64,000 bases of DNA, taken from contig JAUIJL010000017.1 in assembly GCA_030431255.1 (NCBI GenBank), positions 62,001 through 126,000 on the forward strand. The letters run 5' to 3'. Position numbers and translations under genes: made by a program. The DNA comes from Thermoanaerobaculia bacterium (GTDB lineage: Bacteria > Acidobacteriota > Thermoanaerobaculia > Multivoradales > J023). This document shows, in pieces, positions 43,093-56,015 of the stretch (the first letter of the stretch is position 1; every line of letters begins with the position of its first letter). The notes beneath the pieces were generated by a model. That model saw only the letters and a program-made list of their open reading frames with translations. It was not told the origin of the DNA and searched no databases.

Positions 43093-46000
43093 TCAGCTTT
43101 GATCCCAGGCCGAGGTATTGCCGGACTCGAAGCCATCGGCGAAGACCTCACAGGCGTTGGTCGCATCGTCGTCGTTGCAATCCAGGTCGGCGCAGATGTC
43201 GTCGCCATCGACGTCACCGGTGCTGTCGTTGCCCGTGCAATCGTCACAGCCATCGGGCACACCATCGTTGTCGGAATCGACAGTGTCGTCGGACCCTTGG
43301 CAGATGTCACAGCCGTCGGGCACACCGTCGAAGTCGGAATCGACGCTGTCGTCAGACCCTTGGCAGATGTCACAGCCATCGGGCACACCGTCGAAGTCGG
43401 AATCGACGCTGTCGTCAGACCCTTGGCAGATGTCACAGCCATCGGGCACACCGTCGAAGTCGGAGTCGATGGTGTCGTTGGATCCTTGGCAGATGTCACA
43501 GCCGTCGGGCACACCGTCGAAGTCGGAGTCGACGGCATCGTCGGATCCTTCGCAGATATCGCACCCGTCCGGCACACCGTCGCTGTCGGAGTCGACGGCA
43601 TCGTCGGATCCTTGGCAGATATCGCACCCATCAGGCACACCGTCGCTGTCGGAGTCGACGGTATCGTCGGATCCTTGGCAGATATCGCACCCGTCAGGCA
43701 CACCGTCGCTGTCGGAGTCGACAGTGTCGTCGGACCCTTGGCAGATGTCGCATCCATCGGGCACTCCGTCGCTGTCGGAGTCGACGCTGTCGTCGGATCC
43801 TTCACAGATGTCGCATCCATCGGGCACTCCGTCGCTGTCGGAGTCGACGGAGTCGTCGGACCCTGCACAGACATCGCATCCGTTGGGCACGTCGTCGCCG
43901 TCTGCATCGGCTGAGTCGTCAGATCCTTCACAGATGTCGCATCCATCGGGCACACCGTCGCTGTCGGAGTCGACGCTGTCGTCGGACCCTTGGCAGATGT
44001 CGCATCCATCGGGCACACCGTCGTTGTCGGTATCGACGGAGTCGTCGGACCCTGCACAGACATCGCATCCGTTGGGCACGCCGTCGCCGTCTGCATCGGC
44101 TGAGTCGTCAGATCCTTCACAGATGTCGCATCCATCGGGCACACCATCGCTGTCGGTATCGATGGAGTCGTCGGACCCTTCGCAGACGTCACATCCGTCG
44201 GGCACGTCATCGTTGTCGGTATCGATGGAGTCGTCGGATCCTTCACAGACGTCGCACCCGTCCGGCACGTCATCGCTGTCGGTGTCAACCGAGTCGTCGG
44301 ATCCGGCACAGACGTCGCAACCGTCGGGCACGTCGTCACCGTCTGCATCGGCTGAGTCGTCGGATCCCTCGCATAGGTCGATGTCGTTGCAGACGCCGTC
44401 GTTGTCACTGTCCTCCGAGTCGTCGTCGCCTTCGCACTCGTCGCATCCGTCGGGCACCCCATCGTTGTCCGCATCCGCGGAATCGTCGGATCCGGCACAA
44501 GTGTCACAGCCGTTGGGCACGCCGTCACCGTCGGAATCGCTGGCGTCGTTGGAGCCGGGGCAGGCGTCGCAGCTGTCCGGGACGTCGTCATTATCCGAGT
44601 CGGGGAACTCGTAATGGGCCATGCGGGTGACCCAATTCTTGCTGCCGCTGACGACGCCGGAATACTCACCCAGGTACCACAGGCCGAGACCGTCGGGGGC
44701 GATGGTGGCGCCCGTGTAGTCACCCCAGCGCAGGGGGTCGCCGTCGAAGGATCGGTAGGTGATGACGCCGGCTTGCATGGTGGTCAGGTTGCTGAGCTCG
44801 CCGGCGGTGTCGTCGCTTTCGCGCCCGGCCACATAGGCGCCGGGAAATTGGCTGCTGCTGGAGATGGAGAAGCCCACCATCATGTCGTTGCAGCGGTTGA
44901 CCGCGAGGTCAGGGTGCAAGGTATAGAGCGAGTTTCCCGGTGAGTAGACCCCGGCGTCGACGATGGAGTTGGCGGCGGGGTCGAGCTGAGCCCAGCGGAT
45001 GCAATTGACCGTGCCTGAGCCCGGATTGCACGAGAGGTTCTGCACCACCCAGCCGTAACCGTTGCGGTATTCGAAATCGAGGGGTCGCCAGTCGCCGCCG
45101 TCGATGGAATCCGTGCTTCCCGATTGGGGAGGATCGACGGGGGTGCCCACGGAGACGCCGGTGTAGTTGGTGAGATGGAGCTCGTCTTGCTGCACCAACG
45201 TGCCGCTGCCGAAGGGGTCGTCGATCGACCAGATATTGACCTTGTTGACGTTGCCTTGGCCGGTCAGGAAATAATCGGGCCCGGACGTCGGCCAGCTGCC
45301 GTCGCTGTCGCCGTGCAAGCTCAGGGGCTGCGGGGTGAAGGCGAAGTCGGTAAAGCCGTCGAGGGACCAAGACACAGCGGTCGTCGGCTGCTGCAAATAA
45401 ACGGCGACCCTGTCGATCGCGAAGAGGCGCGACTCCTCGAAGCTGCCGTTGACGAATTGGTTCGAGCCCATGTAGAGGGCCTGCCGGCCGACCCCGAGAT
45501 GGGGATAGTCGAAGAAAGCGCCGCCGATATCCGTCGGGAACGAGTAGACCACCCAGGTCAGCAGTGGGTTGTTGGATGTGGAGACGCCGAGGCAATAATC
45601 CGTGCCGTTGGCGTCGGCCCCCATCAGGAAGCGATCGGCCTCTTCGTCGTAAACGATGTTGGGGTCGAAGAGCCCGGAGTCGCAATCCGAGTTGGAGCCC
45701 AGCAGGTCGGTCAAATTGAAGACGCTTGTGACGGCGCCGCCGTTACCTGATAGGTAGATCTGATAGTCGGTGTTGACCACCGCGATGGCAAAGGCATCGC
45801 TGACCGCAAGCTCCGGGTCGGGCGGCACGGAATTGGAATTACTGGCGTCGATGGCGTTGACGTTGACGATCGACGATAGTGACTTTTGCAGGGCCTCGGT
45901 GGGGTCGGCGACGTCGATCCGGTCGCTCGGCGGCAGGGCATAGGCCTGCAGCTGCATCAGATCCACGATGTGCGCCGGTAGGATTCCGGGAATTCGGCCC

Positions 46001-46272
46001 TTTCGCTTGTCGGGCGGGGTCTCAGATTGGGCTGCCAGAGCCTCGGCGGCCAAGCGCTGCTCGGCGCGGGCCAACACATCGTCCATGGTGACCATGACCG
46101 GCGCGCTCGTCCAGGTTTGGGTCCGCTCCGCCCACGGCACACGGACGTCGGTCCGTTGGGTGATCTCGACACCGGCCGGTGCCTGTGGAGCAGAGCTCAG
46201 GTGGCTCAGCCAGAGCTGGTCGGGATCGACGGAGAGTAGAAGGGTCAAAACGAGCACAGGTAAATCAAACAT
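43093..46272 (-). CDS. secreted protein with 22 thrombospondin type-3 repeats and GFE-x-G C-terminus
   Basis: A 1059-residue exported protein. ATG 46272 has GAGGAAA seven bases upstream and starts the signal sequence FDLPVLVLTLLLSV. Residues about 100-550 form a beta-rich domain I cannot name, with FDPNIVYDEEADRFLMGA and DYPHLGVGRQALYMGSN. From about 557 to 1019, 22 repeats of 21 residues follow (DSDxDGVPDGCDICxGSDDS), typical calcium-binding thrombospondin type-3 units with one disulfide each. The C-terminus is VFADGFESGNTSAWDQS, the same motif as in the DUF11 protein at 7470-12581. Probably a calcium-stabilised surface protein. A terminator with an eight-T run follows. Confidence 0.88.
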   Translation of the reverse strand: MFDLPVLVLTLLLSVDPDQLWLSHLSSAPQAPAGVEITQRTDVRVPWAERTQTWTSAPVMVTMDDVLARAEQRLAAEALAAQSETPPDKRKGRIPGILPAHIVDLMQLQAYALPPSDRIDVADPTEALQKSLSSIVNVNAIDASNSNSVPPDPELAVSDAFAIAVVNTDYQIYLSGNGGAVTSVFNLTDLLGSNSDCDSGLFDPNIVYDEEADRFLMGADANGTDYCLGVSTSNNPLLTWVVYSFPTDIGGAFFDYPHLGVGRQALYMGSNQFVNGSFEESRLFAIDRVAVYLQQPTTAVSWSLDGFTDFAFTPQPLSLHGDSDGSWPTSGPDYFLTGQGNVNKVNIWSIDDPFGSGTLVQQDELHLTNYTGVSVGTPVDPPQSGSTDSIDGGDWRPLDFEYRNGYGWVVQNLSCNPGSGTVNCIRWAQLDPAANSIVDAGVYSPGNSLYTLHPDLAVNRCNDMMVGFSISSSSQFPGAYVAGRESDDTAGELSNLTTMQAGVITYRSFDGDPLRWGDYTGATIAPDGLGLWYLGEYSGVVSGSKNWVTRMAHYEFPDSDNDDVPDSCDACPGSNDASDSDGDGVPNGCDTCAGSDDSADADNDGVPDGCDECEGDDDSEDSDNDGVCNDIDLCEGSDDSADADGDDVPDGCDVCAGSDDSVDTDSDDVPDGCDVCEGSDDSIDTDNDDVPDGCDVCEGSDDSIDTDSDGVPDGCDICEGSDDSADADGDGVPNGCDVCAGSDDSVDTDNDGVPDGCDICQGSDDSVDSDSDGVPDGCDICEGSDDSADADGDDVPNGCDVCAGSDDSVDSDSDGVPDGCDICEGSDDSVDSDSDGVPDGCDICQGSDDTVDSDSDGVPDGCDICQGSDDTVDSDSDGVPDGCDICQGSDDAVDSDSDGVPDGCDICEGSDDAVDSDFDGVPDGCDICQGSNDTIDSDFDGVPDGCDICQGSDDSVDSDFDGVPDGCDICQGSDDSVDSDFDGVPDGCDICQGSDDTVDSDNDGVPDGCDDCTGNDSTGDVDGDDICADLDCNDDDATNACEVFADGFESGNTSAWDQS
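43215..44602 (-). repeat. 63-bp tandem repeat array, about 22 copies
   Basis: Each 63-bp unit encodes one 21-residue thrombospondin type-3 unit. The central copies are very similar, while the first and last are more divergent, as expected from repeated unequal exchange. All six frames are open through much of the array because of its restricted codon content. Confidence 0.95.
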
Positions 46273-46519
46273 GGCGGTTTCCTCGATCTCTTCAAGGTCA
46301 GAGCGTGGCTCTAGGCTTCCTACCAAGGACCTGCGGAAAATCGCCGTGGAGGGCTCCATAATTCTTTGCGGTCGCCTTGGACATCCTGTCTAGCGCCGAT
46401 CTGATCTAGCTTTCTGCCAATGCTTGTGGCTTCACAGATGAGCTGGGTTTTGCGGTTGTTCACCCGTGATCGCGGCAGACTTGGTGCAGGGGCGGAGCTT
46501 GTCCCCGCCCGTGAGGCGG

Positions 46520-48205: not shown

Positions 48206-48796
48206 TCATGGGTTCACTTTCAGGAGTCGGCGCAATTTCTGAATCCCCAAGCGGAATCGTCCGGCTGCCGTGAAGGTCGGCACCGAGCAGACTTTTCCGA
48301 TTTCTTGGAAGGTCAGACCTTCGAAACAGCGCAGGTAGACCGCTTCCCGCTGGACGCCGGGTAGGTCGGCCAGTCTCCGGCAAGCCAGCGCGGCATCGAC
48401 GGAAATCGAGGGATCGTCGCCGGCCTGCGGCAGGAGCAGATCGGCGCTCGAAAGCGCTTCGAGGGACTCGTGTTTCGGTCGTCGTCGGATTTGGTCCACC
48501 GTCGCCCGTCGCGTCATGGTCAACAAATAGGCCCGAGCGTTGCGAATCCGGTCCAGCTTGCCCTTGCGGGCCGCTTGGGCCAGCCGGATGAAGGTTTCCT
48601 GAACCGCATCCGCGGCTTCTTGGGCCGATCCCGAACGCCACAACGCCAACCCGTACATCGCGTCGGACATGAGGTCGTAGATCTCGTCCAGCGCCGACTC
48701 GTCGCCCCGTCCGAGGGCCGGTAGCAGGTCGTCCAAGCCCGGATTGGGCTCGTCGGTCGGGGTGGTGGGGTACGGGTCGGGCATCATCAATCCCAT
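48206..48796 (-). CDS. ECF-type RNA polymerase sigma factor
   Basis: A 196-residue extracytoplasmic-function sigma factor. Region 2 is visible as YDLMSDAMYGLALWRSGSAQ-EAADAVQETFIRLAQ with ARAYLLTMTRRATVDQIRRR, and region 4 as LPGVQREAVYLRCFEGLTFQEIG with a helix-turn-helix, followed by SVPTFTAAGRFRLGIQKLRR. It is the first gene of a three-gene operon with two membrane proteins and is divergent from the receiver-kinase gene; the 183-base gap probably holds both promoters. No ribosome site is obvious; the ATG at 48787 or 48784 is an alternative start. Confidence 0.9.
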   Translation of the reverse strand: MGLMMPDPYPTTPTDEPNPGLDDLLPALGRGDESALDEIYDLMSDAMYGLALWRSGSAQEAADAVQETFIRLAQAARKGKLDRIRNARAYLLTMTRRATVDQIRRRPKHESLEALSSADLLLPQAGDDPSISVDAALACRRLADLPGVQREAVYLRCFEGLTFQEIGKVCSVPTFTAAGRFRLGIQKLRRLLKVNP

Positions 48797-48979: not shown

Positions 48980-50311
48980 ATGTTTGAACAACTCCTTTCG
49001 CGCTTCAAGAGCGCTCCTCCAGATGCCGTCTTTCCGTCAACACCGCGCCGAGCTCTCCTTCTGGAGAACGATCCGATCATTTACCCCCTTTTGGCCGATG
49101 TGCTGAAGGCTGAGGGATTCCGGGTCCAGCAGGTCCGGACCACCGCCGAGGTGCCGGTCCAAATTCGTCGCGAGCGATTTGATCTGGTCTGCTTGGAAGG
49201 TGAAGGCAACCCCTCTATCGTCGAAGCGATCCAGGAGATCCGACATCTCTACGGGCCGGACGACATGACGATCGTGGCGATTCCCGATGCCGGGGCTCAG
49301 GGTGGCTCCACGGCCCTGATCGCCGCGGGGGCGGACGATTGCCTCCAAAAACCCCTTGTGCTGACGGAGGTTCGAGCTCGAATTCGGGCTCGGCTGAGCG
49401 GTCGCGGCAAGAGCGCTCGTCCGGAGCTCGCGCGCGCCGCTCCGGGCGTGGTGCTCGACGGCAAATTTCGACTCGAGGAAGAGCTCGGCAGCGGCAATTT
49501 CGGCACGGTGTACTCCGCCCGTCATCTGAGCCTGGAACGTCAGGTGGCGATCAAGATCTTGCACAATAAATTCCTCGACCAGGATGAGGTCGTCCATCGG
49601 CTTCGCCGGGAAGGGGTTTCCACTTGCCAAATCGACCACCCCAACGCGGTCAAGGTCTTCGATTTGAGCCTTTCCCGCGACGGCGAATCCTATTTGGTGA
49701 TGGAGCTCCTCCGGGGTCGCAACCTAGAGGCCGAGATCGCTCGAGCATCCGGGGGTAGGCTCAGGTTGTCCCGAGCCGCGGAAATCCTGGTTCCGGTTTG
49801 TCGTGTCTTGGCCGAAATCCATCGCCTGGGCATGCTGCACTTGGATGTGAAACCGGGAAATATTTTCCTCCACGAACGGACCGGGGGCGAGGTGGTGAAG
49901 GTCCTGGATTTCGGCATCGTGAAGATGATGACCACGACCAGCGAGCACCATGGATCCAGCCCCGAGATCAGCACCAGCTCCTTTGAGGGAACCCCCTCCT
50001 ACGCCTCGGTGGAGCGGCTTGTCGGAGAGCCTTTCGGACCCAAAGCCGACATGTACAGCGTCGGCGTGGTGCTCTATCAGATGCTCACCGGCCGTTTGCC
50101 CTATCAACACGCCAAGAGCCCGGTGCATCTCATTTCTCTGCTGATGTCCGACGATTATCCGTCCATCGACGAGCTGGTGCCCGATCTGCCGCGTGAGCTC
50201 GTCGAGCTGAGCGCTCGAAGCCTGAGCTCGGACTCCAAGGGGCGCCCGTCCGCCTCGGTCATGGCCGATGTGCTGGCGCGTTGGCTGCCGAGCGGGGAGC
50301 ACGGGTCTTGA
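48980..50311 (+). CDS. serine/threonine protein kinase with degenerate receiver domain
   Basis: A 443-residue cytoplasmic kinase. Residues about 23-140 form a CheY-like receiver (RALLLENDPIIYPLLADVLK, then a QKPL lysine), but the phospho-acceptor position reads LVCLEGEG, with glutamate where aspartate is expected. The kinase domain spans about 158-435: glycine loop LGSGNFGTVYSA, lysine in VAIKIL, catalytic loop LHLDVKPGN (HLD in place of HRD), DFGIVKMM, and a GTPSYASVE segment. No membrane helix or repeat domain follows. The gene overlaps the next one by four bases (TTGA), so both proteins are likely made together. The glutamate could mimic constant phosphorylation (inference). Confidence 0.92.
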   Translation: MFEQLLSRFKSAPPDAVFPSTPRRALLLENDPIIYPLLADVLKAEGFRVQQVRTTAEVPVQIRRERFDLVCLEGEGNPSIVEAIQEIRHLYGPDDMTIVAIPDAGAQGGSTALIAAGADDCLQKPLVLTEVRARIRARLSGRGKSARPELARAAPGVVLDGKFRLEEELGSGNFGTVYSARHLSLERQVAIKILHNKFLDQDEVVHRLRREGVSTCQIDHPNAVKVFDLSLSRDGESYLVMELLRGRNLEAEIARASGGRLRLSRAAEILVPVCRVLAEIHRLGMLHLDVKPGNIFLHERTGGEVVKVLDFGIVKMMTTTSEHHGSSPEISTSSFEGTPSYASVERLVGEPFGPKADMYSVGVVLYQMLTGRLPYQHAKSPVHLISLLMSDDYPSIDELVPDLPRELVELSARSLSSDSKGRPSASVMADVLARWLPSGEHGS

Positions 50312-51546
50312 GCGGCGGTGGGATCTCCGCCGAAAGCATCCAACAGATAGGTCTTCTCGCCTCGGAAACGGTCGCCGTCGCCCTATTGCTCGCGGCGTTG
50401 TTTCGAGCGCGTCGTCGATTCGGTCTGTCGCCGCTTTTCGCCACCCTCGGGGTGTTCCAATACCTACAGGTTCTGCTCGCTTTTTCGCTCTACGTGGAAG
50501 TGATTCCCGGGGCTTTCGTCAGCCCGGGCTCCGTGGTGCTTTTCAGCGGAAGCTTATTCGGGCTTTTCCTGGTCTTTCTCCGGGAAAGCCCCCAGGAAAC
50601 GAAAACCCTCGTCTACGGATTGTTGGCGGCCAATCTGGCGCTCAGCGCTTTGTCGTCAATGGTCTCCTTGCATTTCGAAAGCCCGTTGGTCCGGAATCCC
50701 CACCACTTGCCGGAGGACCTCTTCCGGCTCGATGCGAAGATCATGGTCATCGGCACCTTGGTGCTGGTCCTGGACATGTTGTTGATGATCTTTCTCTATC
50801 CGCTGGTCTGCCGGGTCCTGCGCTCGCCGTTCCTGCGTGCGGCGGTGACCCTCTGCTCCGTGCTGGTCTTCGATTCCCTGATCTTCATGACCGCCGCCTT
50901 TGGGCACGATCCGTTTTACATGTCCGCCTTGGGAGCTTCGGTGGTCGCGAAATCCGTCGCGGGCATCATCTATTCGGTGTTTCTGGCGGCATATGTGCGG
51001 TGGGTGGAGCCCAGCTCGGGTCCCGCGAGCTTCGCCACCGCCGGAGACGTCATCCGATGGGGCTTGGGCAAAGGGTCGACCACCCGGAGCACCAAACCCA
51101 TGCCTCGGGATCCCGATTTGGGGATCCTGCCGGCGGGCCATTTTCCAGAGATGCTCAACCGATTCCTCGCCCTCGGCGAGAGCCTGGAGTCCCAGGTGAC
51201 CGTGTGTGTCTTTCGGCTCGCCGGGCCGATTCCCGACTCGGAGCGGCGGGATGTCTTGAGATATCTGCTGGCGGTGCTGCGGGGACAGCTGAGCCAGAAG
51301 GCGGCCTTCGGTCGATACGTCCACGACGGCATTGCCGTCGTGCTTCCGAGCACCGGGCGCCCGGAGGCCGTCAAGGCTTGCCGCGGGGTACGGCGGGCTT
51401 TGGAAGACTCCTTGGCTCGGGTCCGGCCGACCCGGAGGATCGAAACGTTCGGGATCCAGATAGGGTTGGCCTGCTCTCCCGCCGACGGCCTCGAGCCCGA
51501 AGCGCTGCTGGCTCACGCCAACAACGCCCGGAGCTCTGGGGAGTAG
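50308..51546 (+). CDS. multi-pass membrane protein with GGDEF-like degenerate tail
   Basis: A 412-residue protein with about seven hydrophobic segments in the first 240 residues (for example VAVALLLAALF, LYVEVIPGAFV..VVLFSGSLFGLFLVF, LVLDMLLMIFLYPLVC) and a soluble C-terminal domain of about 150 residues (QVTVCVFRLAGPIP ... LAVLRGQLSQKAAFGRYVHDGIAVVLP) that has the fold pattern of GGDEF domains but no GGDEF motif, so it is probably a ligand-binding or inactive form. TTG 50308 is chosen because it overlaps the kinase stop and GGGGAG lies upstream. It may sense a signal and act on the kinase (inference). Confidence 0.75.
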   Translation: MSGGGISAESIQQIGLLASETVAVALLLAALFRARRRFGLSPLFATLGVFQYLQVLLAFSLYVEVIPGAFVSPGSVVLFSGSLFGLFLVFLRESPQETKTLVYGLLAANLALSALSSMVSLHFESPLVRNPHHLPEDLFRLDAKIMVIGTLVLVLDMLLMIFLYPLVCRVLRSPFLRAAVTLCSVLVFDSLIFMTAAFGHDPFYMSALGASVVAKSVAGIIYSVFLAAYVRWVEPSSGPASFATAGDVIRWGLGKGSTTRSTKPMPRDPDLGILPAGHFPEMLNRFLALGESLESQVTVCVFRLAGPIPDSERRDVLRYLLAVLRGQLSQKAAFGRYVHDGIAVVLPSTGRPEAVKACRGVRRALEDSLARVRPTRRIETFGIQIGLACSPADGLEPEALLAHANNARSSGE

Positions 51547-51547
51547 A

Positions 51548-53053
51548 TCAATGGTGGTGTCGCTGGATCACCTTTCGATCGCGCATCCGGCCCGTATTCG
51601 GGGTCCAAGGAGTGGCCGGAGCGGGATAGGGAGTGTTCAGAATACCGATCTGGTTGCCCATGCGCGTCTGCACGGCGGGGCTCACCATCTGCACGTCTTC
51701 GAGGCCTTCGATCGTTGAGAAGAGCAGGATATTTAAGGAGCCGCCGAAGAAGAAATTGCCGAAGGGGGTGACCCCTTTGGTCACGGTGTGTCCGTTCTCG
51801 ACCTGCGGGCTGAAGACCAAAGAGCCGACCGTGTCGAGCCCCACGGGGATGGAGGCGACATAACCCTTGAGCATGTCCGGTTTCTTGCCGGGCAGGTTCT
51901 TGTAGGTCACCTCAACGATGATCACGCCGCGCTGAAAACCCTGGAATTGACTGAAATCGGTGCCGGGCCGACCGACGTTGCCGTCCAGGGGCACCCAATT
52001 GGGCCAATCGTCGTCGCCGAAGGTCCCCCACGCGTCCTCGGTGCCGGCTTCGACGATCTCGTGGTACTGGATCACGCCGTCCACGGGGCTGTGGAAGTGG
52101 TGATACGTGTTGGGCATCAACACACACGCCAGCCCCGAGCCGCCGTTGAATTTCTTTTTGAGCGACTCGGGTGCGCCGGCCAGCATATCGTCCACCGAGA
52201 TCGGGATGCCCTTAACGTCCAACACGGTGTCTTTTTGCAAGGGATTGTCGATCAGACGTCGATGGTAGACCCCAGGGCTCGTCTCCAAGACTTGCACCAG
52301 CGGATTCATGATGCAGTCGGTGGGGGAGACGATCACGTAGTCGCGATCGGGCATGGTCACGGGGCGGGAAGGATAGGTGCCGTCGGGAGCTTGTTTGAGA
52401 TTGCGGGCGAAGAGCTCATTCCAGCTCCTGTACTCGTCGGCCCGGGTTTTGACGTAGTCTTGAATCTCGAGCCGGGGGTCGGCGATCCACTCGGCCACCA
52501 CTTTTTGGGATTCAGGGCTGTCCATATAACCTTTATAATCCGCGTTGAATAGGATCAAGAAATCCCTAACGGTATCGAGCGGTTTTGTCGGGTCATTGGG
52601 ATCGATGCCTTCGACCATCCGGCGGCCCGCTTGGTTGTGGTAGTACAGCCAGGCGAAGTATTGAATCGAGTCCAGGGCGTTGTCGTTGGTGCCCACGATC
52701 TGCGGCAACAGGGTGCACACCTGGCTGTAGAAACGTTTGACCGCCAGGTAGAGATCCTCACCGTTTTGATTGCCTTTTCTCCAAGGGTTGTCCGTGGAGC
52801 CGTGGTAGGTATAACCTGGGGGCAAAGGTTTTAATCTTTCAAAAGTCAATTGGAACGCAGCCCGGGTGGCCGGATCGTCACGGTAAGCGGCGGTCAGAAA
52901 ATCCAGGGATCCTCGGCAAGGCGAAGGCTCGTTGTCTTCGGCCCAAATCGTGTGGGGCACGCAAGCGAGCAACAACACGATGACAGCGAGCTTCCAAGGG
53001 TTTCGTCTGGAGAGAGAGTTTTGACGGCACGGGGCGTCGGCAGGTCGGACCAT
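51548..53053 (-). CDS. exported phosphatidylserine-decarboxylase-family protein
   Basis: A 501-residue protein. AAGGAG lies eight bases before ATG 53053 and a signal peptide follows (NPWKLAVIVLLLACVPHTIWAE). The C-terminal half matches phosphatidylserine decarboxylases: YHHFHSPVDG with the catalytic histidine near residues 325-334, VEVTYKNLPG, and the self-cleavage region FGNFFFGGSLNILLF near 450-464, where the serine after GG would form the pyruvoyl group. The first 200 residues are a helical domain of unknown type (YRDDPATRAAFQLTFE). An exported relative is unusual, since core enzymes are membrane-bound without signal peptide. Convergent with the receiver-kinase operon. Confidence 0.85.
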   Translation of the reverse strand: MVRPADAPCRQNSLSRRNPWKLAVIVLLLACVPHTIWAEDNEPSPCRGSLDFLTAAYRDDPATRAAFQLTFERLKPLPPGYTYHGSTDNPWRKGNQNGEDLYLAVKRFYSQVCTLLPQIVGTNDNALDSIQYFAWLYYHNQAGRRMVEGIDPNDPTKPLDTVRDFLILFNADYKGYMDSPESQKVVAEWIADPRLEIQDYVKTRADEYRSWNELFARNLKQAPDGTYPSRPVTMPDRDYVIVSPTDCIMNPLVQVLETSPGVYHRRLIDNPLQKDTVLDVKGIPISVDDMLAGAPESLKKKFNGGSGLACVLMPNTYHHFHSPVDGVIQYHEIVEAGTEDAWGTFGDDDWPNWVPLDGNVGRPGTDFSQFQGFQRGVIIVEVTYKNLPGKKPDMLKGYVASIPVGLDTVGSLVFSPQVENGHTVTKGVTPFGNFFFGGSLNILLFSTIEGLEDVQMVSPAVQTRMGNQIGILNTPYPAPATPWTPNTGRMRDRKVIQRHHH

Positions 53054-53271
53054 GGGAGATCTCCTTCGTGGGTGGGATTCGGCGGGCACACGGGACTGCC
53101 GGCAGCAGCCTGCGGGCTGCGTCCACCTCCTCAAATCAAGCTTCATGTTGTAACGCCCATTCAATCTAGCGCACTGAGATCTTAGGGTCCAGTAGCCCAT
53201 TCGGCTCCGGCTCGGAAATATTGCTCGTCTTTTGTTAGATTGGCGAGGAAGACACAACACAAGGGGAATCG

Positions 53272-54528
53272 ATGCGAAATTTGGTGATTGGGATCGTCGG
53301 CGTTTGCCTTGCCCTAAGCTCGACCGTAAGCCATGCCCAGGCAGGAAACTGGTTTCTGACGGTGAAACGAGCCTCGGAGCAGCCCAGCAAGCTCGAGCTA
53401 TTGTCGGAGGAGCAATTCTCGATTGCCCTCGAATACCGATTGTCCGCGTGGACGAGACCTTTCCACTCCTTCTCAACCCGCCCGAAAACCATCAACTATC
53501 ACCTGTTGACCGAGTGGGATGGGGTGAGCTTCGACTCAATCCTCGAAGGTGAGATCGTCGGCCGACGCACAGCACCCGGGCTCAAAGAAGATCCGCTCCT
53601 GGCCACAATCAACACCGTCACCCTTCGGGACAAACCCATATTGACCGCGCCGTTTGTCGCCGGGGACTATTGGGTGAGCGGTTGTTTGTCGAAACCCACC
53701 GGCGCGGGTGGGCTGGGCTCGAAAGCGGGAGGCCTAGCGGAAACTCGATGCTCGAATCCGGTCAAGCTCGAGGTGTCGGCTCGTCCCCGCCCGGATTTGG
53801 TGACGCGAAATGTGCGCGTTCGCTCCGCGGTCAAACGCATCAACGGGCCCGATGGCATTATCGTGGGGGACAAGCTCATTTTGAGCGCAGAAGCCTTCAA
53901 CGCCGGCGATGAGCGTGCCCGGTTCGACTCGATGCTCAGGTTCTTCCAGATACCTCCCAGCGCCAATCGGGATTTCGTCGATCCCGACAACGATCCCATG
54001 CTCGCGGAAGCGAGAGTGCCGAAGCTGCGTGAGGGGGGATCCAAGCGTCAATCGACCACCCTTGAGGGTCCGCCGAGCCCTGGAGATTTCCGCTATGCGG
54101 TGTGCGTGGATCCGATTCGAGGCATCGGCACTCGGGAGTCGAATCCCGACAACAACTGCAGCCGACCGGTCACCGCGAGGGTACAGAGGTCGCCCACTCC
54201 TTGCGTGGATCTGACCGTGGAAAGCGTGACCGGGCTCGGCACAAAGGCTCCGCTGGAACGTTACAACGTGAATTTTGTAGTGAAAAATATCGGTAATCGG
54301 GACATGGCTGCTCCGGGTATTGGAAAAATCCAACGCCCCGGAAGGGTGACCCAAAACTCCAATCCCACGGTGTTGCTCGCCGTCGACGACACTCAATCCT
54401 TCACTTTCGAGGCCGTGGCCCCGGAAGCATTAGGTCCAGCTTTCGGCAAGGTCTGTGCTCATACCAAGCAAGATTGCAATCCGCGCAATGATTGTTTGGA
54501 GATCGCCATCGAAGTGGACGGCAATTAA
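53272..54528 (+). CDS. exported CARDB-like repeat protein, copy A
   Basis: A 418-residue exported protein (signal peptide LVIGIVGVCLALSSTVSHAQ). Residues 25-175 are a beta-rich region with paired cysteines; about 180-300 and 315-415 form two CARDB-like immunoglobulin folds, each starting like RPDLVTRNVRVRSAVK or PCVDLTVESVTG and carrying NAG or NIGNRDMAAPG turns. CARDB modules occur in cell-surface adhesins of bacteria. It is one of two tandem paralogues with about 55-60 percent identity to the next gene by eye. Start ATG 53272 follows GGGGA. It is divergent from the phosphatidylserine-decarboxylase-like gene. Confidence 0.85.
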   Translation: MRNLVIGIVGVCLALSSTVSHAQAGNWFLTVKRASEQPSKLELLSEEQFSIALEYRLSAWTRPFHSFSTRPKTINYHLLTEWDGVSFDSILEGEIVGRRTAPGLKEDPLLATINTVTLRDKPILTAPFVAGDYWVSGCLSKPTGAGGLGSKAGGLAETRCSNPVKLEVSARPRPDLVTRNVRVRSAVKRINGPDGIIVGDKLILSAEAFNAGDERARFDSMLRFFQIPPSANRDFVDPDNDPMLAEARVPKLREGGSKRQSTTLEGPPSPGDFRYAVCVDPIRGIGTRESNPDNNCSRPVTARVQRSPTPCVDLTVESVTGLGTKAPLERYNVNFVVKNIGNRDMAAPGIGKIQRPGRVTQNSNPTVLLAVDDTQSFTFEAVAPEALGPAFGKVCAHTKQDCNPRNDCLEIAIEVDGN

Positions 54529-54749
54529 CCCGCCTGTCAGCAAAGCCTTCAGATCACCAGATGTCGGTCGGCGCCGGCAACCTTTGGGCTACTTCCGCCC
54601 CCTCAGATCAAGCTCCGTGTTGTAACGCACGGTCGAGCTAATGCACTGAAATCTTAGAACTAGCCAAGACTAGCTCGAAAAAGCCCAGTCCGGCTATGAG
54701 TCGGGCATCTATTGAGTTGTCGAGGCGACACACAACTGAAGGGGGATTG

Positions 54750-56015
54750 ATGCGAATTCTAGTGATCGGGATCGTGAGTATCTGTTTTGCCCTAGGGACG
54801 GCTTCGATGGGCCAAGCCCGAGCCGGCAACTGGTTTCTCGACGTAAAACAGGGGCCGAATCAAGAGCCCAAGCTCCAGCTGCAGTCGGAAGAGCTGTTTG
54901 TCATCGAGCTGCAATATAGATTATCCGCCTGGACGAAACCTTTTTACTCTTTTACGACGCGGCCGAAAAAGATCAACATCCATCTGCTGACCGAATGGGA
55001 TGGGGTCAGCTTCGACAGAATTCTGGGCGGGGAGATCATCGGTGAGCTGAGAGCTCCCGGGCTCACGACAGGTTCGATTTGGGCCACGGTCGACAGCACC
55101 TTGACCCTAAGAAGCTCCAATTTGACCGCACCGTTTTTGCCGGGAGACTATTTCGTCAGCGGATGCCTATCGAGAGCCACGGGAGGTGGAAAAATGGGCT
55201 CTGTACTGGGCGCGTCTGCGGCAGCCCGATGCTCTGCTCCGGTGAAGCTCGAGGTATCGCAACGCCCGCGTCCGGATTTGGTCATCTCGAAAGTCCAGGT
55301 CAAGTCCGCGGTGAAGCGCATCGGAGGGTCGGGCGGTATACAGCTCGGCGATAGGATCACCCTCAGCGCTGAAACGCTCAACGCCGGCAATGCTCGCTCT
55401 CAGTTCCCCTCAAGAGTACAATTCTTTCTGATCCTTCCCAGCGCCAATCGAAGCTTTGTCGACCCCGACAACGATTTGATGCTCGACGACGTGAGGTTGC
55501 CGAGACTGGATGCGGGAGAAGCGAAGCTGCAAACGATTACCATCGATGGGCCACCCAATCCCGGAGATTATCGTTTTGGAGTATGTGTGAATCCAATCAC
55601 GATAGCCCAAGACGGGGAGTTGGATGTCGACAACAATTGCAGCCATCTGGTCACCGCCAGGGTACAGCGGCCGTCCACCCCGTGCGTGGATCTGACGGTG
55701 GAATCCGTCAGCGGTCTCGAGACCACCAGGGCACCGCTCGAGCGCTACGACCTGAGCTTTGTGGTCAAGAATGTCGGCAATCGAGACATGACGGCTCCGG
55801 GAGTGGCCAAGATTCAACGTCCCGGTCGAGTGAATCAGGATTCCGATCCCACCGGCTTGATCGCAGTGGGTGAGACGGAGACTTTTTCGTTCGTTGGTGT
55901 GGCCCCTGAAACCTTGGGGATCTCCGTCGGCAAGGTGTGTGCCCACACCAAGCAGGACTGCAACCCGCGCAATGATTGCCTAGATATCGCCATGGAGGTT
56001 CAGGAAAACCCCTGA
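54750..56015 (+). CDS. exported CARDB-like repeat protein, copy B
   Basis: A 421-residue paralogue of the preceding protein with the same order: signal peptide (LVIGIVSICFALGTASMGQA), first beta-rich region with YRLSAWTKPFYSF, then two CARDB-like folds (RPDLVISKVQVKSAVKRI and PCVDLTVESVSGLE) and the conserved end CAHTKQDCNPRNDCLDIAM. ATG 54750 is preferred over 54696 because GGGGGA precedes it and the signal peptide begins there. The upstream sequences of both copies are also related, so the duplication included the promoter. Two expressed copies may allow different ligands or partners. Confidence 0.85.
   Translation: MRILVIGIVSICFALGTASMGQARAGNWFLDVKQGPNQEPKLQLQSEELFVIELQYRLSAWTKPFYSFTTRPKKINIHLLTEWDGVSFDRILGGEIIGELRAPGLTTGSIWATVDSTLTLRSSNLTAPFLPGDYFVSGCLSRATGGGKMGSVLGASAAARCSAPVKLEVSQRPRPDLVISKVQVKSAVKRIGGSGGIQLGDRITLSAETLNAGNARSQFPSRVQFFLILPSANRSFVDPDNDLMLDDVRLPRLDAGEAKLQTITIDGPPNPGDYRFGVCVNPITIAQDGELDVDNNCSHLVTARVQRPSTPCVDLTVESVSGLETTRAPLERYDLSFVVKNVGNRDMTAPGVAKIQRPGRVNQDSDPTGLIAVGETETFSFVGVAPETLGISVGKVCAHTKQDCNPRNDCLDIAMEVQENP

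Follow-up and report, generated by a model that had tools for sequence, protein, structure and literature searches.

Degenerate receiver and GGDEF domains between a VUPS membrane sensor and a Ser/Thr kinase suggest phosphate-free signalling in a Thermoanaerobaculia bacterium

A stretch of 64,000 nucleotides from a Thermoanaerobaculia bacterium (GCA_030431255.1, contig JAUIJL010000017.1, positions 62,001 to 126,000 of the forward strand), called here the window, contains two overlapping genes for a receiver-kinase and for a VUPS membrane sensor with a GGDEF-like tail. Judged by alignment, the sensor is ordinary, the kinase is somewhat eroded, and both domains that would link them appear dead, which suggests a signalling pair now working by touch or by another phosphate-free route. 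As the outer domains are largely preserved and the two inner ones dead, the simplest account is that the signal passes by contact and not as a phosphoryl group or nucleotide. The reading favoured here, put forward tentatively as quite possible, is a two-gene membrane-to-kinase signalling unit without its phosphotransfer step, in which the dead domains would couple by contact. Confidence is limited because 148 class genomes and phylum samples of 396 genomes yielded a single instance of the degenerate pair; it is absent from G001, which belongs to the same genus.

The first gene (48980–50311, + strand) is an open frame for a pseudo-receiver and Ser/Thr kinase of 443 residues. The pseudo-receiver domain spans residues about 24–135 (49049–49384, +), as delimited by Pfam (residues 26–135) and by alignment with 29 receivers, and its Response_reg match (26.5 bits, E 7.7e-06) lies below the Pfam curated cut-off of 30.2. 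The kinase domain (residues 164–426; 49469–50257, +) has a Pkinase match of 148.5 bits and, with the catalytic Lys, Glu, Asp, Asn, and DFG all present, would class as a Hanks-type enzyme. NCBIfam gave no closer family for this protein, all matches listed being far under their own cut-offs. In the 10.2 Mb genome, 153 places match it, and among the matches listed most do so via the kinase domain only. Its single-sequence structure model (pLDDT 33.6) is too low in confidence for use.

The second gene (50308–51546, +) encodes a VUPS sensor with a pseudo-GGDEF tail, of 412 residues. Its TTG start at 50308 is placed from the gene overlap and an upstream GGGGAG; translation could also begin at an in-frame TTG at 50281. 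The overlap of four bases reported in the first-pass annotation is seen as TTGA at 50308–50311 (+). The VUPS domain (PF20973, “vitamin uptake-like sensor”; residues 26–230, 50383–50997, +) scores 184.6 bits against a cut-off of 27, covers profile positions 2–206 of 206, and is the sole VUPS match of the genome. About seven membrane helices had been proposed for this protein, and the low-confidence single-sequence model (pLDDT 50.2) agrees, having seven long helices before residue 240 and a GGDEF-like helix/strand order at 279–406. The tail (residues about 267–412, 51106–51543, +), delimited with the help of an alignment with seven intact relatives, gives a weak Pfam GGDEF match (26.8 bits, cut-off 23.8), and the NCBIfam GGDEF score of the protein (22.5) is under its cut-off of 37.4. 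Most of the matches of the tail to solved structures are GGDEF proteins, at weak scores (best E 0.0066).

VUPS domains are rare in the class, being present in 8/147 and 8/148 genomes in two overlapping searches, and in 10/396 phylum-sample genomes, one of them below cut-off; the genome of the window is counted each time. The phylum-sample genome G207 has a partial, sub-cut-off VUPS match. Eighteen other VUPS proteins were collected, 17 by Pfam and one by our own profiles, and eight of them have a GGDEF domain, in every case with the motif. No receiver-kinase was seen beside any of these eight VUPS-GGDEF genes, two of which (L033, L034) lie on short contigs. The L034 frame (177–2882, − strand, on a 3 kb contig) joins aminotransferase, VUPS, and GGDEF parts in 901 residues, and is either a true fusion or an assembly artefact. 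The putative vitamin uptake transporter profile Vut_1 is matched above cut-off by the VUPS relatives L036, L056, and L060, and below it by L035, L037, L038, L039, and L063; the window protein has no Vut_1 match at E up to 1. A small-molecule ligand for the VUPS part is a guess. No literature on the domain was found among the matches listed.

Several other genes lie near the pair. An ECF-type sigma factor gene (48206–48796, −), with a weak PF07638 match, is divergent from the kinase gene at a distance of 183 bases, and is weakly indicated as a candidate kinase substrate. PF07638 has 87 matches in the genome, 60 of them above 130 bits; six of the best 10 have a kinase match at a distance of 1 kb or less, among the matches listed and counted by eye. 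The sigma factor of the window belongs to the 27 matches below 45 bits, of which two, its own included, have a listed kinase match that close. A tie between this divergent sigma factor and the kinases of the genome was considered, and with two of 27 in its group near a listed kinase the link is weak. Convergent with the gene pair is a 642-residue frame (51548–53476, −) ending in a phosphatidylserine decarboxylase-like domain (59.4 bits). By eye, a tandem pair of similar, exported-looking proteins is encoded at 53272–54528 and 54696–56015 (+), and a long protein at 43093–46359 (−) has many DSDGDGVPDGCD-type repeats, which we take to be thrombospondin type 3-like.

Among receiver-kinase homologues, a histidine kinase is a frequent neighbour, located within 1.5 kb in 18/29 cases and within 300 bases in 16; four of the other 11 (the second receiver-kinase of L092 and those of L098, L104, and L105) lie no more than 1 kb from the end of a contig. 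When the called genes of the window were scanned with profiles built for this analysis, neither a histidine kinase nor a further receiver was detected. Tandem receiver-kinase genes near a hybrid histidine kinase gene occur at L092 (5608–8582), L094 (5268–8040), and L099 (5672–8539). At L035 (5715–9496), L036 (6058–9776), and L039 (3951–7965), a VUPS-PAS histidine kinase and a canonical receiver-kinase are encoded by overlapping genes, the overlaps being 4, 4, and 17 bases, respectively. These operons are apparent phosphorelays from VUPS to a Ser/Thr kinase, and they indicate that the pairing of VUPS with receiver-kinases recurs. The earlier view of the window genes as a sensor-kinase pair is thus strengthened by the four-base overlap, the VUPS family of the partner, and the overlaps in these three relatives. 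At L115 (2251–6051), L116 (3089–6052), and L117 (3060–10431), Reg_prop propellers and a Y_Y_Y domain are joined to Ser/Thr kinases, an arrangement more typical of histidine kinases. These three kinases, which were all scanned, are 46–48% identical to the window kinase.

The trees use 29 receiver-kinase comparators, with L110 missing, and the propeller-kinase tree is without the receiver-less kinases of L106 and L108. The kinase-only trees put the window kinase beside 23 canonical receiver-kinases, with support of 95/90 in one and 94/87, not starred, in the other. The groups submitted to the AU test were named after a tree was seen, for which the test does not allow, and its p values have to be read with this limit: joining the window kinase to L035, L036, and L039 plus L045 gave 0.034 and 0.025 in the kinase-only trees and 0.43 in the full-length tree, which does not reject it; joining it to the same three without L045 was rejected in the full-length tree (8.8e-69); and grouping it with the receiver-less propeller kinases L115–L117 was not rejected (0.23). 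Orthology of the window pair with the operons of VUPS histidine kinases and receiver-kinases is disfavoured by the first two of these values. The VUPS tree leaves the placement of the window protein open. Since the kinases of L035, L036, and L039 apparently form another branch, VUPS probably joined receiver-kinases twice.

These results bear on the explanation that the two genes are co-transcribed but separate, the kinase answering to another partner and the VUPS protein having a different job. Gene overlap speaks for co-expression, not contact, the kinase and the VUPS protein seem to come from separate lineages, and the pairing is in one genome. However, a VUPS sensor overlaps receiver-kinase genes in three relatives too, and the parallel losses in the two proteins point to change that was linked; separate functions are, on balance, rather unlikely.

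Where conservation was lost was assessed by a retention count, in which the positions that are near-invariant in relatives were scored in the window protein; as a control, the other rows were scored by leave-one-out. The thresholds were 85% for VUPS (16 rows with the window) and 90% for kinase and receiver (24 rows each), and for GGDEF (8 rows) all identical; the VUPS count is without the distant L063 and L064, and L062 is absent from the VUPS tree and the retention counts. The window keeps 22/25 residues in VUPS (mean of the others 0.85, lowest 0.69) and 62/74 in the kinase (mean 0.95, lowest 0.89), a lower fraction than in any of the 23 kinase comparators. Only 16/35 are kept in the receiver (mean 0.96, lowest 0.86) and 8/38 in the GGDEF tail (mean 0.95, lowest 0.90). 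Identity follows the same course: the receiver of the window averages 22% against the 23 nearest receiver-kinases, vs 52% among those 23, and for the kinase the values are 43% and 51%. Within the class, matches to the first protein that span receiver and kinase have at most 42% identity; kinase-only matches reach 44% in the class and 48% in the phylum sample. Both reading frames are intact and full-length, and each of the four domains has the codon use of a coding sequence (G+C at third positions 0.69–0.81), the codon score being weakest in the tail (0.126 per codon vs 0.211–0.248). The low retention of the kinase and the weak codon score of the tail make relaxed selection possible.

An explanation by decay would go further, and see in the pair a receiver-kinase and a diguanylate cyclase without inputs or outputs, drifting and still read through, with no coupled function. 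Consistent with it are the simultaneous death of two domains, the 12 of 74 near-invariant residues lost from the kinase, the long end branch of the window (2.02 in the full-length tree, 1.23 in the kinase-only tree), and the restriction of the pair to one genome, with absence from G001. It is opposed by the full-length, coding-like frames, by the presence of all catalytic kinase residues, by a sensor as conserved as in its relatives, and by a loss that is confined to two domains and not evenly spread, all of which make decay unlikely.

The receiver pocket is changed at most of its key positions. In the alignment with 29 homologues, which comprise 25 of the 26 other receiver-kinase matches (all except L110) and L035, L036, L039, and L045, and with CheY, the acceptor position is Glu73 (codon GAA, 49196–49198, +). 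The acceptor Asp is present in 29/29 homologues and, by eye, in L110, so that the substitution proposed in the first-pass annotation is confirmed, and the window stands alone with Glu. Another acceptor Asp near Glu73 was looked for and rejected, as none lies alongside in the alignment. Further pocket changes go beyond those in the first-pass annotation. The acidic pair is Asp-Asp in 29/29 homologues and, by eye, in L110, and Glu29-Asn30 in the window; the switch Thr/Ser of 29/29 homologues is Pro102, and the switch aromatic is Cys121. The pocket Lys, found in 28/29 homologues (L043 has Glu), is kept as Lys124. Thus, from the residue set of a functional response regulator the window keeps only Lys124 and one acidic residue, Glu29; having receiver homology along its full length and no acceptor Asp, the domain is a pseudo-receiver. 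The pocket changes resemble usual pseudo-receiver substitutions: where these are surveyed, the acceptor Asp is replaced by Glu more often than by any other residue (26%; PMC4395418), and Asn is described as common at the second acidic position (PMC12632262).

The Glu could be phosphomimetic, Glu73 imitating phospho-Asp and keeping the kinase constitutively on, with the VUPS protein merely a co-expressed neighbour. Its frequency among replacements fits, as does the retained Lys124, and Glu at the acceptor position is reported to activate some response regulators (PMC4395418, PMC12632262). Such a mimic is, however, proposed to engage the conserved Thr and Lys (PMC12632262). In the window protein Pro102 has replaced that Thr and Asn30 the second acidic residue, which lowers the likelihood of this explanation; in addition, the whole receiver has diverged beyond the needs of a single mimic. 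A constitutively active kinase of this kind is therefore quite unlikely, and the earlier idea of a locked receiver is weakened in its simple phosphate-mimicking sense, while the Glu itself stands.

In the tail, VHDGI (residues 338–342, 51319–51333, +) occupies the position of GG(D/E)EF, which is intact in 8/8 other VUPS-GGDEF proteins (L033, L034, and L056–L060 aligned; L062 by eye, GGEEF), in accordance with the motif-less GGDEF-like domain described before. The residues of the metal-site stretch are also changed, leaving the tail without the residues of a diguanylate cyclase, and the I-site RxxD is lost by alignment (Arg to Ser, Asp to Ala), leaving it without those of a cyclic-di-GMP receptor. 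A surviving GGDEF-equivalent motif, which the first-pass annotation had named as a point to check, was rejected since the alignment contains none. Ligand binding through the tail is unsupported for GTP or cyclic-di-GMP, with its GG(D/E)EF, metal-site, and RxxD positions changed. In another explanation, kinase activity would be set by a new small molecule bound to one of the two degenerate domains. It is favoured by the ability of pseudo-receivers and degenerate GGDEF domains to acquire new inputs. CdgI, described as binding cyclic-di-GMP via an intact I-site (PMC5635695), is a precedent. Against it, the known nucleotide sites of the tail are changed and no other candidate pocket was found, and this explanation is improbable.

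The kinase also departs from its relatives. Its catalytic loop had been noted to read HLD rather than HRD, and it does so at H287-L288-D289 (49838–49846, +); HRD is found in all 29 aligned homologues and, by eye, in L110. The (A/S/P)PE of the activation segment is SVE. A non-RD kinase fits allosteric switching rather than activation-loop phosphorylation, and the HLD loop suggests that the window kinase is controlled by allostery.

In the favoured contact reading, VUPS would respond to a small molecule or to some state of the membrane by rearranging its pseudo-GGDEF domain. At the membrane, this domain could then bind either the pseudo-receiver or the kinase, which would be switched by contact. 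Degenerate GGDEF domains are described as able to act through protein contacts in Escherichia coli (PMC5635695). The fuller proposal, that a receptor of dead two-component and dead cyclase parts drives a Ser/Thr kinase by direct contact and that VUPS came to be paired with receiver-kinases on two or more occasions, is possible but doubtful when taken as a whole.

Each part of the pair has known counterparts. Canonical receiver-kinases of the class (L042, L043, L092, L093) have the same domain order and size, with kinase identity up to 47%; unlike the window protein, canonical receiver-kinases keep Asp, Asp-Asp, and HRD throughout (29/29) and often have a histidine kinase nearby (18/29 within 1.5 kb). 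The VUPS-PAS-HisKA-HATPase operons (L035, L036, L039) share the sensor family and the overlap with a receiver-kinase gene, but have a histidine kinase output, an intact receiver, and the reversed gene order. VUPS-GGDEF proteins (L033, L034, L056–L060, L062) have the domain order of the window protein, L034 being 43% identical to it in VUPS, and differ in the motif, GG(D/E)EF in 8/8 where the window has VHDGI. Pseudo-receivers, as described, share with the window a Glu in place of the acceptor Asp, an Asn in place of the second acidic residue, and the retained Lys, and in fungal Rim15p a pseudo-receiver, often with Glu, is likewise coupled to a protein kinase (PMC12632262, PMC4395418). In contrast to these, Rim15p included, the window protein is bacterial, has its receiver N-terminal to the kinase, and has a membrane-sensor partner with an apparently dead output domain.

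A 2025 review describes the switching of bacterial pseudo-receivers as a mystery (PMC12632262). The window offers such a domain joined to a readily assayed enzyme, the kinase, with its likely partner encoded directly after it, and the pair can be compared with canonical relatives that have histidine kinases. If the contact model is true, a phosphorelay-type pathway would have been rewired while its sensor and its output stayed in place.
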